Source of the DNA: Pedobacter nutrimenti
Lineage (GTDB): Bacteria; Bacteroidota; Bacteroidia; Sphingobacteriales; Sphingobacteriaceae
Reading direction: 5' to 3'
Assembly: GCF_003208655.1 (NCBI RefSeq)
Contig: NZ_QKLU01000002.1
Span: 188,285-252,284, forward strand
DNA length: 64,000 bases
The notes beneath the pieces were generated by a model. It worked only from the letters and a program-made list of their open reading frames with translations. It made no database searches and was not told the origin of the DNA. A program made the translations under genes and the position numbers. Positions 41,216 through 61,567 of this stretch are shown piece after piece (the first letter of the stretch is position 1; every line of letters begins with the position of its first letter).

Positions 41216-42793
41216 ATGATCAAATCTGCTGTTTTTTATCTCTGCCTGACACTACTGGTCCTGAGCTGCAAACCTTCCAAAACCAGCAAGCTGGTCCTGG
41301 ACACCATCCCCGATCCCAAAACCCTTGGAGAAAGTTATGTCAGTAATCCGGACAACCTGCTTTCCGACGCAACAGTATCCACCCTGAACAGGGACCTGAG
41401 CGCACTGGACCAGGAAGGTACCGCACACATTGATGTCGTGTTTGTAAAAAGTATCGGAGACAATGTTCCAAAAGACATTGCACACGAGCTTTTCAGGAAA
41501 TGGAAAATAGGTGACCAAAAAAGCAATAACGGACTATTGATCTTTATGGTAAAAGATCAGAAAAGGATAGAGTTTGAAACCGGTTATGGCCTGGAGGGCA
41601 GTCTTCCGGACATGATTTGCAGAAGGATCCAGGAAGATTACATGATTCCCTATGCCAGGAACAATGATTTCGACAATGCCGTTCTTAAAGGAGTCGACGC
41701 GACCATAAGCCACCTTAAAGGCAACGCTTCATCTCCGGCAGAACCAGAAGTCCAGGTGGTCTCTCCGCTCCCCGATCAGGCAACCGCTCCCGGCCCGGTC
41801 CCAGTCATGGATCCCGGAGCGATGCGTCCCGACCCCCGACCAGCTACCATTTCAGGAGAAAACCAGGTACAGCCTCCGGTCAGTAGCACTGAAAAAACCG
41901 GCCCCTCAGGCAATCCGGGAGGCTTACTTTCTATTTTGATCTTTGTATTTTACATGATCTTTGCAATTATCCTTGGCCGTAAAATGACCGCTTACAAATT
42001 TAAACGGGCATGGCTAAATCCCTTCATTTATTTAATGGTACTGGGTCCGGCCGCTTTGATCATTTATTTAAATCTATATTATCCAACGTCTTTTTATGAC
42101 CTGCGGGCATTTTTTGTCCTTTGTTTTTTGCTCTGGTTCTTTGTTAACGCTCATTTTCTGATTCTAGGGGCAATACTAAAAGCAAGTCTGAAAGAAAAAA
42201 GCAGACATGAACAATACCTGGCCTGGAGAGAAAGACATGAGCCAATGGAAAAAATAGTCTTGAAACTTTTCTCTTTTCCATTTCTGAAAGCATACTGGGA
42301 AACCTATACAGAAAGATTAAAACGATTGCGGTACGACCCAATGGATTGTGATCATTGTAAAAGTACAATGACCCTTCTTGACGACAAAAAAGAGGACGCC
42401 TATTTATCTAAAGGACAGCTTACTGAAGAACAGATAGATGCTATAGATTATGACGTATGGCTTTGTACTTTCTGCAATGCGACCCTGGTACTGGACTATA
42501 AAAACCTTCAGTCAACAGCAAAACCCTGCAGCCAATGTCATTTCCAGACCATGGAGTTCAAAAAAAGAAAAATAATGAAACGGGCAAGCAGTTCCGATGA
42601 TGGTTATGGTTATGAATATTATGTCTGTGCCAACTGCCTGTTTGAAGAAAGTATTAAATTCATTATCCCTCAAATTTCCAGTTCCAGTGACAGTTCTTCT
42701 TCTTTTTCAGACAGCAGCAGCTCTTCCTCTGACAGCTCTTCCTCCAGCAGCGGAGGAGATTCTGGGGGAGGCGGAGCAGGCAGCAACTGGTAA
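41216..42793 (+). CDS. TPM-domain lipoprotein with zinc-ribbon CxxC pairs and Ser/Gly-rich tail
   Basis: A 525-residue protein. Lipobox LLVLSC gives Cys18. A TPM domain (about 35-170) has SYVSNPDNLLSD, NGLLIFMVKDQKRIEFETGYGLEGSLPD and RNNDFDNAV. A Pro-rich linker leads to three hydrophobic helices (about 238-322). The C-terminal region has four CxxC pairs (CDHC, CTFC, CSQC, CANC), enough for two zinc ribbons, and ends in a poly-Ser/Asp run and GGDSGGGGAGSNW, a tail typical of YgcG-like TPM proteins. TPM proteins act in membrane-protein repair or have weak phosphatase activity. The zinc ribbons are an unusual addition. A terminator follows. Confidence 0.85.
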   Translation: MIKSAVFYLCLTLLVLSCKPSKTSKLVLDTIPDPKTLGESYVSNPDNLLSDATVSTLNRDLSALDQEGTAHIDVVFVKSIGDNVPKDIAHELFRKWKIGDQKSNNGLLIFMVKDQKRIEFETGYGLEGSLPDMICRRIQEDYMIPYARNNDFDNAVLKGVDATISHLKGNASSPAEPEVQVVSPLPDQATAPGPVPVMDPGAMRPDPRPATISGENQVQPPVSSTEKTGPSGNPGGLLSILIFVFYMIFAIILGRKMTAYKFKRAWLNPFIYLMVLGPAALIIYLNLYYPTSFYDLRAFFVLCFLLWFFVNAHFLILGAILKASLKEKSRHEQYLAWRERHEPMEKIVLKLFSFPFLKAYWETYTERLKRLRYDPMDCDHCKSTMTLLDDKKEDAYLSKGQLTEEQIDAIDYDVWLCTFCNATLVLDYKNLQSTAKPCSQCHFQTMEFKKRKIMKRASSSDDGYGYEYYVCANCLFEESIKFIIPQISSSSDSSSSFSDSSSSSSDSSSSSSGGDSGGGGAGSNW

Positions 42794-42854: not shown

Positions 42855-42998
42855 TGGCTGTTGGGGAAGGAGTCGAACCTTCAAGGGGAAGTTAGCCGCA
42901 GTTCAAAATTAATTTGTGGTCAACCCATAAACTGTGTTTATCCCATGATCCCCACCACCGAGACAAGAAGGTGTGTCTGCCAATTTCACCACCCAACA
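42855..42998 (-). tRNA. class II tRNA-like gene A, anticodon GUC, giant 72-nt variable arm
   Basis: Reads as a full tRNA on the minus strand. Acceptor TGTTGGG pairs with CCCAACA (7 bp); D arm GTG/CAC with GG in the loop; anticodon arm CCTTC-TTGTCTC-GGTGG (anticodon GUC at 42964-42962, U33 present, U29-U41 mismatch and U30-G40 wobble); T arm GAAGG-TTCGACT-CCTTC; discriminator G; encoded CCA at 42857-42855. The variable region (42954-42883) is 72 nt, against at most about 25 nt in known class II tRNAs. Its base is closed by GGGGA/TCCCC. The D arm is Leu-like, but the anticodon is that of tRNA-Asp. I know no family with this form. Confidence is for a structured tRNA-like RNA, not for its decoding role. 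Confidence 0.75.
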
Positions 42999-43016
42999 TG
43001 ATATTTAAGAACTCCA

Positions 43017-43069
43017 TTTAAACAGTAAGTTTTTGGTTTAGGTTGATTTTTTCTACCTTACTGTTTAAA
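43017..43069. repeat. perfect 13-bp inverted repeat between the tRNA-like genes
   Basis: TTTAAACAGTAAG (43017-43029) and its exact complement (43057-43069) enclose a 27-nt loop. It occupies the 73-nt spacer between the two tRNA-like genes and ends 2 nt from the 3' end of gene B. It lacks a U run, so it looks like a spacer or processing stem rather than a terminator. Confidence 0.85.
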
Positions 43070-43071
43070 AG

Positions 43072-43179
43072 CTGTAGGGGAAGGAGTCGAACCTTCAAGG
43101 AGTAGTTAGCCCTTTCGGGTTTTCCATATTCTCCACCACCGAGACAAGGAGGGGTGTCTGCCAGTTCCACCACCCTACA
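43072..43179 (-). tRNA. class II tRNA-like gene B, anticodon GUC, 39-nt variable arm
   Basis: Acceptor TGTAGGG/CCCTACA; D arm GTG/CAC; anticodon arm CCTCC-TTGTCTC-GGTGG with anticodon GUC (43145-43143) and the same U29-U41 mismatch; T arm identical to gene A; discriminator G; CCA is not encoded. The variable region (43135-43097) is 39 nt: GGAG/CTCC at the base and a CCC-GAAA-GGG hairpin at the tip. Against gene A, acceptor pair 4-69 changes T-A to A-T and the variable-stem third pair changes G-C to A-T, both compensatory. ATGG and GGCTAACT are conserved inside both variable arms. First gene of the transcript. Confidence 0.78.
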
Positions 43180-43227
43180 GTGTGCAGCAAATGTTAAAGA
43201 ACTTATTTTTTTATCGTTTGCTTGATA

Positions 43228-43259
43228 CAAATGTAATAAGAGCCTCAATATGTTGCAAA
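43228..43259 (-). promoter_or_regulatory. promoter of the tRNA-like unit
   Basis: On the minus strand TTTG (43256-43259), a 20-nt spacer and TACATTTG (43228-43235), exact matches to the Bacteroidota -33/-7 elements, about 49 nt before the 5' end of gene B. Confidence 0.7.
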
Positions 43260-43332: not shown

Positions 43333-43806
43333 ATGATAAAAAAAGAAAGCCAAAATTCAGAAATTGATAACCTCGATATAGACATCCTGAAACAACTGAT
43401 GCAGGATGCCACCAAACCCTACACCGAAATCGCTAAAGACCTCATCGTATCGGGGGGGACCATTCACGTGAGAATGAAAAAATTACAGGAAATGGGCATC
43501 ATCAGGGGTTCACACCTGATCATTGACCCCCAAAAAGCCGGATATGACATTTGTGCCTTTCTGGGAATTTACCTGGAAAAAGGAATCCAATATAAAGATG
43601 CAGTTGCCCAGCTGAGCCAAATCAAAGAAGTTGTGGAACTTCACTATACCACTGGTGCATACAGCATGTTTGCCAAAATCATTTGCAGGGATACCAGTCA
43701 CCTCAGACACGTACTGAACGAAGAAATACAGGCCGTACCAGGCATACAACGAACAGAGACCCTGATTTCATTGGAGGAGAGCATCAGAAGGCAGATTGAA
43801 CTGTAA
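43333..43806 (+). CDS. Lrp/AsnC-family transcriptional regulator
   Basis: A 157-residue regulator: N-terminal winged HTH (LDIDILKQLMQDATKPYTEIAKDL, then GTIHVRMKKLQEMGII) and a C-terminal RAM ligand-binding domain (ELHYTTGAYSMFAKIICRD, RTETLISLEESIRR). Lrp-type proteins sense amino acids. It is divergent from the tRNA-like unit with their promoters in a shared AT-rich region of about 150 nt. Its target and effector are unknown; self-regulation and control of the divergent unit are plausible. Confidence 0.93.
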   Translation: MIKKESQNSEIDNLDIDILKQLMQDATKPYTEIAKDLIVSGGTIHVRMKKLQEMGIIRGSHLIIDPQKAGYDICAFLGIYLEKGIQYKDAVAQLSQIKEVVELHYTTGAYSMFAKIICRDTSHLRHVLNEEIQAVPGIQRTETLISLEESIRRQIEL

Positions 43807-43833: not shown

Positions 43834-45234
43834 TCAGTCTTTATTCATTCTTACAATCCTGGGCATAAACCTACCCTCTACATCCACCAGCGCGGTCTGC
43901 GCCTGCATGACCCGCTCAATGTCCTTATAAGCCATAGGATGTTCTTCAATACTGCCACCAATTAAAGTAACCCCCGCTGTTCCCAGTATTTTCTTTAAAG
44001 CAGAAACCGTAGAACTGTTTCGGGCCTTTTGCCTGCTCATGGCCCTTCCTGCACCATGGGAAGCAGAATTCAGCGAGGCCGCCACCCCCTTTCCTTTCAC
44101 CAGATAAGCAGCAGTACTCATACTGCCCGGAATGATCCCCATAGCACCCTGGTGGGCAGGCGTTGCACCTTTACGGTGTACCACCGCCTCAAGGCCGTCT
44201 TCCAGCAGTTCCTTCCAGGCAAAATTATGGTGGTTTTCTACTTTTGCCAGCGCCTGTAGTCCAAGGGACTTCAGCAGGCTCGAGTGAATCACATCATGAC
44301 AGGCTTTTGCATAATCCCCGGCAAGATTCATACTCAACCAGTATTCCTGACCTGCCTGTGTATCCATGTCAAGCCAGGCCAGGCTTGACACTGGTTTTGG
44401 CAGCTTACAGGTTTCCATAGCAATCCGGGTATAGTACTGCGCCACATTTGCCCCTAAAGCCCTGCTGCCGGAATGGCTCAACAGGGCCAGGTATTTTTTG
44501 GAGGGAAGGCCCATTGAATTCCCTTCAAATAATTCCAGTTCTCCAAATTCCACAAAATGATTTCCGCCACCAGAACTACCGAGTTGCCTGGCCGCCTTTC
44601 CCTGTAGCTTTTTCAAGAGCTCCGTCTGATGAAATACAGGACTATCCATAATTTCATGTTCCGGCTGCACATCCAGCATTCCTTCCATTCCAAAATGTGT
44701 AAATTGTTTCATCGAAACTTTTATCTGGTGACTGTAACGTTTAAAAAAGCTATCGCTTTCATCAATAATGGTCATGGCCATCCGGCAACCAATATCTACG
44801 CCCACTGCGTAGGGTATAACCGCATTTCTTGTGGCCAGTACCCCTCCTATAGGCAACCCATAACCGGCATGTGCATCCGGCATTAAGGCACCTTGCAGCA
44901 CCACGGGCAGGGACATAGAAAGTTCCATTTGTTTCTTTGCCCCGGCCTCAATGTCCCGGCCTCCATAAATTTTAAGCTGGCCGGTTTCCTGAAGCAGGGA
45001 ATAGCTCTTAAAAGCAAGTGGTTTTGGCCTGTCCATAAAGGTTTCGGCAATCTTGCACAGGAACTGGTCATCTATAAAATCTTGGGGATATTCCCTGATT
45101 TGATGGAGTAGCGCTATAATTTCACTTTTTGAATGGTGTTTGTAGTTCCTGGCCATGATATTGATCACCAGGCTTCTCGCTTTATCATTCGTATAACCTA
45201 TTTTACTAAGTTCTTTTGTTTTTAAAATGCTCAT
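43834..45234 (-). CDS. rtcB: RtcB-family RNA-splicing ligase
   Basis: Joins RNA ends with 2',3'-cyclic phosphate (or 3'-phosphate) to 5'-OH, using GTP and Mn2+; repairs or splices tRNA in characterised organisms. The 466 residues show all key motifs: PDAHAGYGLPIGGV, Mn ligands Asp147 and Cys150 in VGVDIGCRM, His226 in GGGNHF, His254 in LSHSGSR, ENHHNFAW near 335, GATPAHQGAMGIIPGSM, and the guanylated His393 in SASHGAGRAMSR. It lacks neighbouring rtcA, rtcR, archease or prfH. It is convergent with the Lrp gene (27 nt), which separates it from the tRNA-like unit. Confidence 0.95.
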   Translation of the reverse strand: MSILKTKELSKIGYTNDKARSLVINIMARNYKHHSKSEIIALLHQIREYPQDFIDDQFLCKIAETFMDRPKPLAFKSYSLLQETGQLKIYGGRDIEAGAKKQMELSMSLPVVLQGALMPDAHAGYGLPIGGVLATRNAVIPYAVGVDIGCRMAMTIIDESDSFFKRYSHQIKVSMKQFTHFGMEGMLDVQPEHEIMDSPVFHQTELLKKLQGKAARQLGSSGGGNHFVEFGELELFEGNSMGLPSKKYLALLSHSGSRALGANVAQYYTRIAMETCKLPKPVSSLAWLDMDTQAGQEYWLSMNLAGDYAKACHDVIHSSLLKSLGLQALAKVENHHNFAWKELLEDGLEAVVHRKGATPAHQGAMGIIPGSMSTAAYLVKGKGVAASLNSASHGAGRAMSRQKARNSSTVSALKKILGTAGVTLIGGSIEEHPMAYKDIERVMQAQTALVDVEGRFMPRIVRMNKD

Positions 45235-61384: not shown

Positions 61385-61442
61385 TTAATTTAAAATGTTG
61401 ATAAAAATTACTCATTCAGAATTTTCAGATGATGTCATCAAT

Positions 61443-61537
61443 CTTATCTTTCTGCCACCGGCAGAAGGAATTAGCACCTTGTCGGGGACAGGTTGCTAAG
61501 ACGTCACAGGGCCTTTCCCTCAGTCTTTCTGGATAAG
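61443..61537 (-). ncRNA. SAM-I (S-box) riboswitch
   Basis: Minus strand, 95 nt, 58 nt before the desulfurase start. P1 is CTTATC/GATAAG. The family core is intact: AGAAAGACTGAGGGA, GGCCCTGTGA, TTAGCAACC, AGGTGCTAATTCC, and the P4 stem TCTGCC/GGCAGA. P2 and the kink-turn positions, P3 (CCTGTC/GACAAGG) and the J3/4 GCTAA are all visible. SAM binding should turn off the downstream gene. No rho-independent terminator follows, so control is likely at translation initiation. Confidence 0.95.
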
Positions 61538-61567
61538 TAAATAAGTTATAAGAACGAATTCTTGGGA

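Follow-up and report, generated by a model that had tools for sequence, protein, structure and literature searches.

Two tandem tRNA-like genes, copy A of a short type and copy B of a long type, lie on the minus strand of the window (the whole 64,000-nucleotide stretch of Pedobacter nutrimenti DNA that was analysed), with a gene for an AsnC-type Lrp regulator divergent from copy A (Table 1). A preliminary description had reported two tandem tRNA-like genes with variable arms of 72 and 39 nt, and this is confirmed from the sequence. Both genes have a 7-bp acceptor stem, a 3-bp D stem, a 5-bp T stem, the T loop TTCGACT and G73, that is, the normal arms attributed to them, and both share the anticodon loop TTGTCTC (anticodon GUC), a U29-U41 mismatch and U37. 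The differences between the copies described as compensatory are real (pair 4-69, A-U/U-A; third V-stem pair, A-U/G-C), and the D arm, which had been likened to that of tRNA-Leu, is one base off the genome's own tRNA-Leu(UAA) across positions 8-26. That tRNA is the likely source of the RNA body, from which the tRNA-like RNAs differ in carrying G73 instead of A73, U1-A72, another anticodon loop and the giant arm. The preliminary description therefore had the genes right; it gave no strand and missed their partners, namely the divergent AsnC gene, GatCAB and the absent asparagine synthetases.

Table 1. Positions of the features discussed and of two further elements of the window; R1 is the covariance model of the RNA family
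Feature	Position	Strand	Description and basis
TPM-domain protein	41216-42793	plus	Long serine- and glycine-rich tail
Copy B tRNA-like gene, long type	42858-42998	minus	141 nt, CCA is the next three bases; R1, 112.9 bits
Copy B variable arm	42883-42954	minus	72 nt; V-stem GGGG/CCCC, block TTGACCACAA, 3′ block GCTAACT
Copy B anticodon loop	42960-42966	minus	TTGTCTC; sequence and conservation count
Copy A tRNA-like gene, short type	43072-43179	minus	108 nt, U1 to G73, no encoded CCA; R1, 127.7 bits
Copy A variable arm	43097-43135	minus	39 nt; V-stem GGAG/CTCC, inner hairpin CCC-GAAA-GGG, 3′ block CTAACTA
Copy A anticodon loop	43141-43147	minus	TTGTCTC; G34 U35 C36 U37 C38; sequence and conservation count
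boxA-like leader element GTTCTTTAACA	43192-43202	minus	GTTCTT[TA]-type motif
Candidate -7 promoter element TACATTTG	43228-43235	minus	TAnnTTTG-type motif
Candidate -33 promoter element TTTGC	43255-43259	minus	Part of TTG-N18..23-TAnnTTTG motif
AsnC-type Lrp regulator gene	43333-43806	plus	PDB and NCBIfam profile matches
RtcB-family RNA ligase	43834-45234	minus	466 aa; PRK09588 and release_rtcB matches below cut-offs
SAM riboswitch	61441-61539	minus	83.3 bits, over gathering score

Standard searches passed over both genes. ARAGORN called no tRNA in the window, no Rfam family reached its gathering score over either gene (the best weak match was tRNA-Sec, with 20 bits against 47), and a whole-genome search with RF00005 returned 46 tRNAs with neither copy A nor copy B among them; the same genome holds two ordinary tRNA-Asp genes. 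The folding energies of the two genes were no better than those of shuffled sequences (z = -0.09 and -0.40), and support for the RNA fold therefore rests on comparison.

Extent, fold and leaders of the RNA family

A covariance model, R1, was built from 28 distinct homologs, in whose alignment all 644 of 644 cloverleaf cells pair, with double-sided changes in 8 of the 23 pairs, compared with 49-67% of cells pairing in slid control versions of the same alignment. Conservation as a family, together with compensatory change, supports the earlier view that these are functional RNAs and not pseudogenes, and the covariance search proposed at that time finds the family recurring widely in Sphingobacteriaceae. 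At the DNA level, 138 of 201 sampled genomes of the window's family gave a match, a few of the matches being weak (near 0.002-0.008). With R1, about 179 of 250 sampled genomes in the window's order were positive, all of them within the window's own family, and at least 38 of 395 genomes across the phylum, in seven families, were positive among the matches listed. These genome counts are a table reading of copies of at least 105 nt; the matches listed form two separate groups, such copies on the one hand and ordinary 84-nt tRNA-Leu near 50-60 bits on the other. Hosts among the matches listed are Pedobacter, Mucilaginibacter, Arcticibacter, Chitinophaga, Dyadobacter, Spirosoma, Cyclobacterium, Algoriphagus, Echinicola, Fulvivirga and Phaeodactylibacter. 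R1 bears out 70 of the 80 listed loci that had been found by pattern. Tandem arrangements of short and long types are common, and in one genome (G004) five copies form a 150-nt ladder. A 104.7-bit copy (L259:3131-3240) was also seen on a contig titled Ignavibacteriales UTCHB1, which is Sphingobacteriaceae-like and possibly mis-binned. No description of the family was found in open-licence papers, subscription papers lying outside the search. The RNA family is real, apparently undescribed, and strikingly coherent in its genomic setting.

The family extends to phages. One long-type copy sits among the tRNAs of a 636-kb phage record, and a pattern search of IMG/VR gave 69 loci, 28 of which have a family copy, some of the viral contigs carrying identical copies. 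At least one ARAGORN tRNA is present on the same stretch in 27 of these 28 loci, and an AsnC match in none of the 28. The viral pattern itself required GUC and C38, so that the informative positions there are U1 (28/28) and the others. Relative to the arm of copy B, phage copy L033 has its inner stem changed from CAGTT/AACTG to CAGAA/TTCTG. A further phage relative (L397:2909-3003, minus strand) has U1-A72, GUC, C38 and G73 but a class II arm of ordinary size, which suggests that the giant arm may be dispensable in that relative. Arrays of another kind were observed in phage contig L380 (5130-5276, 6143-6262, 6478-6616, 7683-7830, 7947-8052 and 8137-8251, minus strand) and also in L382 and L421, comprising tRNA-Leu shells with constant acceptor, D and T arms and A73, in which the anticodon and variable region are replaced by differing inserts; these are perhaps another set of tRNA-scaffolded RNAs.

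The variable arms are 36 to 131 nt long and include conserved blocks. The block TTGACCAC was found in 48 of the 98 arms longer than 60 nt, and 48 of the 51 four-base arm loops belong to GNRA hairpins. The best stem lengths beside the TAAC block were not clearly above those of shuffled arms, and the arm structure claimed here is limited to the GNRA hairpins and the V-stem. Two further ideas were examined by eye and set aside: a tmRNA-like coding arm, because the short reading frame within the long arm is open in some copies (L006) but stopped in the window copy and in the phage copy, and a likeness of the anticodon arm to an anti-Shine-Dalgarno sequence, which is lost in other families. The sequence GGCTAACT may resemble the 530 region of 16S.

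Upstream of the genes, the motif TTG-N18..23-TAnnTTTG, containing what we take to be the Bacteroidota -7 consensus (TAnnTTTG), occurs in 63 of 109 unique upstream regions compared with 1.2 in mononucleotide shuffles. The motif GTTCTT[TA], represented in the window by GTTCTTTAACA, which is presumably akin to boxA, occurs in 44 of the 109 compared with 3.8 in mononucleotide shuffles, and in 43 of these 44 it lies at -14 to -34. Promoter-like motifs, boxA-like leaders and tandem copies suggest an abundant, highly transcribed RNA, and high transcription would fit the need of a carrier limited by turnover.

Genomic setting: AsnC, GatB and asparagine synthetases

The best match of the divergent regulator in the PDB is E. 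coli AsnC (PDB code 2cg4), with 131.8 bits and the next at 83.5; against the NCBIfam AsnC profile PRK11179 it scores 178.1 bits, below the cut-off of 227. AsnC was found in 65 of 87 fetched RNA loci, repeats included; with only the best locus of each genome counted, it was present in 57 of 75 and absent from the other 18. It is divergent from the RNA in all 41 cases measured, at a distance of 114-226 nt, and in a scan of the neighbours in 20 regions it was the most recurrent (8/20), followed by an outer-membrane-protein-like gene (5/20). E. coli AsnC is described as an activator of asnA whose activation is abolished by asparagine (PMC4482635). The arrangement seen here resembles the E. coli asnC-asnA pair in that an AsnC-type regulator stands divergent from a gene that would produce asparagine, and differs in that the target is an RNA gene and not a synthetase, regulation by AsnC being proposed from position.

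Genome content was compared over a panel of 80 genomes (46 R1-positive, 34 negative), hand-chosen from about 145 with R1 status known beforehand and with G248, G271 and G562 excluded as ambiguous. GatB is present in 46/46 positives versus 6/34 negatives (Fisher p = 5e-16), E. coli-type AsnB in 0/46 versus 23/34 (p = 4e-12) and AsnA in 1/46 versus 7/34 (p = 0.009), kinship being ignored in all three values. Counted by genus, GatB is found in 28/28 versus 6/25, and AsnA or AsnB in 1/28 versus 16/25. A single genus (g21) shows both conditions: in four positives GatB is present without E. coli-type AsnB, and in two negatives E. coli-type AsnB is present without GatB. An AsnC homolog occurs somewhere in all 46 positives and also in 26 of the 34 negatives; among nine AsnC loci of R1-negative genomes that were read, one (G252) has an AsnC-like gene divergent from asnB.

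The E. coli-type AsnB class was defined by a 528-578 aa frame with a two-part PF00733 match, and against the NCBIfam profile (cut-off 499) G016 and G021 pass with 919.6 and 930.1 bits, G252 falls narrowly below with 491.8, and G202, with 273.6, is not borne out. One positive (G014) has a two-part PF00733 match in a 643-aa frame, which was left uncounted. Most positives keep long PF00733 proteins with low AsnB scores (253-320 bits where listed); five of six members tested pass TIGR01536, among them those of the four tested positives other than G443, and some of these proteins could make asparagine in their hosts. Eleven of the 46 positives lack AsnA as well as any PF00733 match with an E-value below 1e-5, and one genome (G361) has both AsnA and the RNA.

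Most of the GatB-positive negatives can be read individually. G209, G201, G202 and G240 each have a single PF00749 protein and thus probably no GlnRS, which would leave a glutamine job for GatCAB. In G075, only 26 nt separate AsnC from the end of its contig, and an adjacent RNA would fall outside it. G289 has GatB, at least two PF00749 proteins and AsnC, yet no R1 copy was found in it and no E. coli-type AsnB; it is unexplained. All 46 positives have at least two PF00749 matches, the pair of the window's own genome alone being verified as GlnRS and GluRS. Two members of the window's family with genomes of 1.7-1.8 Mb (G005 and G030) have AsnC and no GatB, AsnA or credible PF00733 match, and are likely asparagine auxotrophs.

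The window's own genome (99.98% complete) encodes GatB, GlnS, GltX, AspS and AsnS above the NCBIfam cut-offs, as well as LysS, and has no match to PF00733 or PF03590, that is, no AsnB or AsnA. It therefore has the gene content of the classical indirect pathway, with GatCAB present, as judged from its GatB subunit, and AsnA and AsnB absent. Its AspRS carries the motif DLGG, like the discriminating E. coli and T. thermophilus enzymes (PDB codes 1c0a and 1efw); PDB chains labelled as Asp/Asn ligases (4wj3, 5w25 and 5gro) carry DHGG, as does the AspRS of G209, the one R1-negative genome without evident AsnRS. The motif His was found in none of ten carrier genomes read, three of which have neither motif. 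Judged by this motif, the own genome lacks the non-discriminating AspRS of the classical pathway, and Asp-tRNA(Asn) would consequently not be expected in it. With GlnRS also present, GatCAB would be left without another evident substrate. The own tRNA-Asn also has U1-A72, so that classical amidation on tRNA-Asn is opposed only by the AspRS motif and by U20a.

Predicted charging and amidation signals

Conservation was counted over 98 unique copies drawn from 74 R1-searched sources. U1-A72, G2-C71, U3-A70, U35, C36, C38 and G73 are present in all 98 and G34 in 95, the remaining three having U34 or C34; in pattern-found sets, the conservation of G34 and C36 is a product of selection by the pattern. 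U33 is present in 88, and position 37 is U in 83 copies, C in 10, G in five and A in none. A second set, parsed from named genomes, comprises 97 copies; A is likewise never found at position 37 in these and U33 is present in 81, three copies being without the TGT start and two without the ACAG end. Nucleotide 20a is absent in 218 of 218 parsed rows, repeats included. The first D-stem base, corresponding to G10 of E. coli tRNA-Asp, is G in 65 of the 98, and the bacterial tRNA-Asp combination of G1-C72 and G10 is not found in the family, which has U1-A72 throughout. The own tRNA-Asp has G1-C72, U20a, U33 and A37; the own tRNA-Asn has U1-A72 but U20a.

G73, G34, U35, C36 and C38 are described as the identity elements of AspRS, and U1-A72 as the determinant of amidation, which is blocked by G1-C72 and U20a (PMC9976931, PMC6523644, PMC4206432). 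At the level of sequence, the RNA combines the AspRS identity set with the GatCAB signal (U1-A72, no U20a) and is free of both tRNA-Asp antideterminants, and we infer that it is a substrate of the two enzymes. A decoding elongator would have U33 and a purine at position 37 (A in the own tRNA-Asp), a combination that the family does not keep, and it is unlikely that the RNA decodes codons, because U33 is found in only 88 of 98 copies and A37 in none. The non-decoding mimic considered in the preliminary description gains support from the same counts, and the noncanonical synthetase also considered there appears unneeded, since the copies bear an ordinary AspRS identity set. Quite probably, the RNA is a dedicated carrier that does not decode: it would receive aspartate from AspRS, have it amidated by GatCAB, and supply asparagine under AsnC control.

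Of the other readings, a regulatory tRNA mimic, which would bind AspRS or GatCAB or sense charging and so tune asparagine metabolism under AsnC control without carrying the pathway, is improbable. The divergent AsnC gene and conserved arm blocks such as TTGACCAC would suit it, and identity elements would be equally useful for mere binding. However, regulation would not fill the biosynthetic gap left where E. coli-type AsnB is absent, the invariant U1-A72 with G73 (98/98) suggests catalysis at the 3′ end over binding alone, and the arms vary from 36 to 131 nt, with one phage copy having an ordinary arm.

That the RNA decodes GAC and GAU as an oddly built tRNA-Asp isoacceptor is very improbable. 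Set against the GUC anticodon of 95/98 copies and the placing of phage copies within tRNA arrays are the loss of U33 in 10/98 copies and the lack of A37, both present in the own tRNA-Asp, the two ordinary tRNA-Asp genes that the genome already has, and the mistranslation of Asp codons that an Asn-charged GUC tRNA would cause.

Serylation in the style of allo-tRNAs deserves scarcely more than a passing thought, even though the long arm and G73 are features recognized by SerRS and GUC is listed as one of the most frequent anticodons in 8/4 allo-tRNAs (PMC7609411). The RNA has a 7-bp acceptor stem and a 5-bp T stem where allo-tRNAs have 8/4 or 9/3, and serylation would not account for the link with GatB and AsnB. 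To our knowledge, the invariant UC-N-C loop and U1-A72 are not required by SerRS. The family shares with allo-tRNA and tRNA-Sec a long variable arm, G73 and a variable, non-cognate anticodon context, and is distinguished from them by its 7/5 acceptor branch, its 36-131 nt arms, an AspRS-type loop and the lack of any link to Sec or Ser. A role against tRNA-cutting toxins, as decoy or as repair substrate with the neighbouring rtcB as ligase, is hardly credible. Phage copies do exist and the RtcB-family gene is close by, but of 87 fetched loci only four have rtcB, each of them repeating the window's own place, and its presence there is incidental. No link with any toxin was observed, and AsnC and GatB would be left unexplained.

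Proposed asparagine synthesis on an RNA carrier

In the carrier reading, AspRS would load aspartate on the RNA and GatCAB would amidate the attached aspartate to asparagine; after its release from the RNA, AsnRS would attach the asparagine to ordinary tRNA-Asn. AsnC would set how much carrier RNA is made, and the non-decoding loop, without A37 and with U33 dispensable, would together with the giant arm keep Asn-RNA off Asp codons. A point against this reading is that, by reasoning, spontaneous hydrolysis looks too slow for the supply of asparagine on the scale of protein synthesis. More tentatively, we lean toward a wider proposal in which making a free amino acid would be the only job of this RNA, a non-decoding chimeric adaptor joining AspRS identity to the GatCAB signal, which would replace asparagine synthetase in several families of Bacteroidota, be dosed by an asparagine sensor and have been acquired by tRNA-rich phages. 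In this proposal the giant arm may bring about the release, perhaps as a deacylating ribozyme or as a dock for a hydrolase.

The predicted enzymes and chemistry are those of classical indirect asparagine synthesis (non-discriminating AspRS and GatCAB acting on tRNA-Asn), with Asp likewise attached to a U1-A72 tRNA. In contrast to that pathway, the substrate would be a separate non-decoding RNA with an Asp anticodon, chargeable by a discriminating AspRS, in cells that have AsnRS. The staphylococcal non-proteinogenic tRNA-Gly, which feeds peptidoglycan synthesis, is also a tRNA diverted from decoding into metabolism; it passes its amino acid unaltered to the cell wall, whereas the RNA described here is predicted to be the site at which the amino acid is made.

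A 2014 survey is cited here for its placing of Bacteroidetes among the genera with AsnRS, GlnRS and GatCAB and no evident asparagine synthetase, and for its assumption that asparagine is synthesized there on tRNA-Asn (PMC4206432). The present RNAs make up a new, large family that was missed by the standard tRNA tools used. If the carrier reading is true, it would be a variant of the transamidation pathway whose novelty lies in a dedicated non-decoding RNA substrate, and it would explain the source of asparagine in such Bacteroidota. Some phages would then bring their own asparagine-making RNA, and a metabolic pathway would run on an RNA carrier split from decoding.
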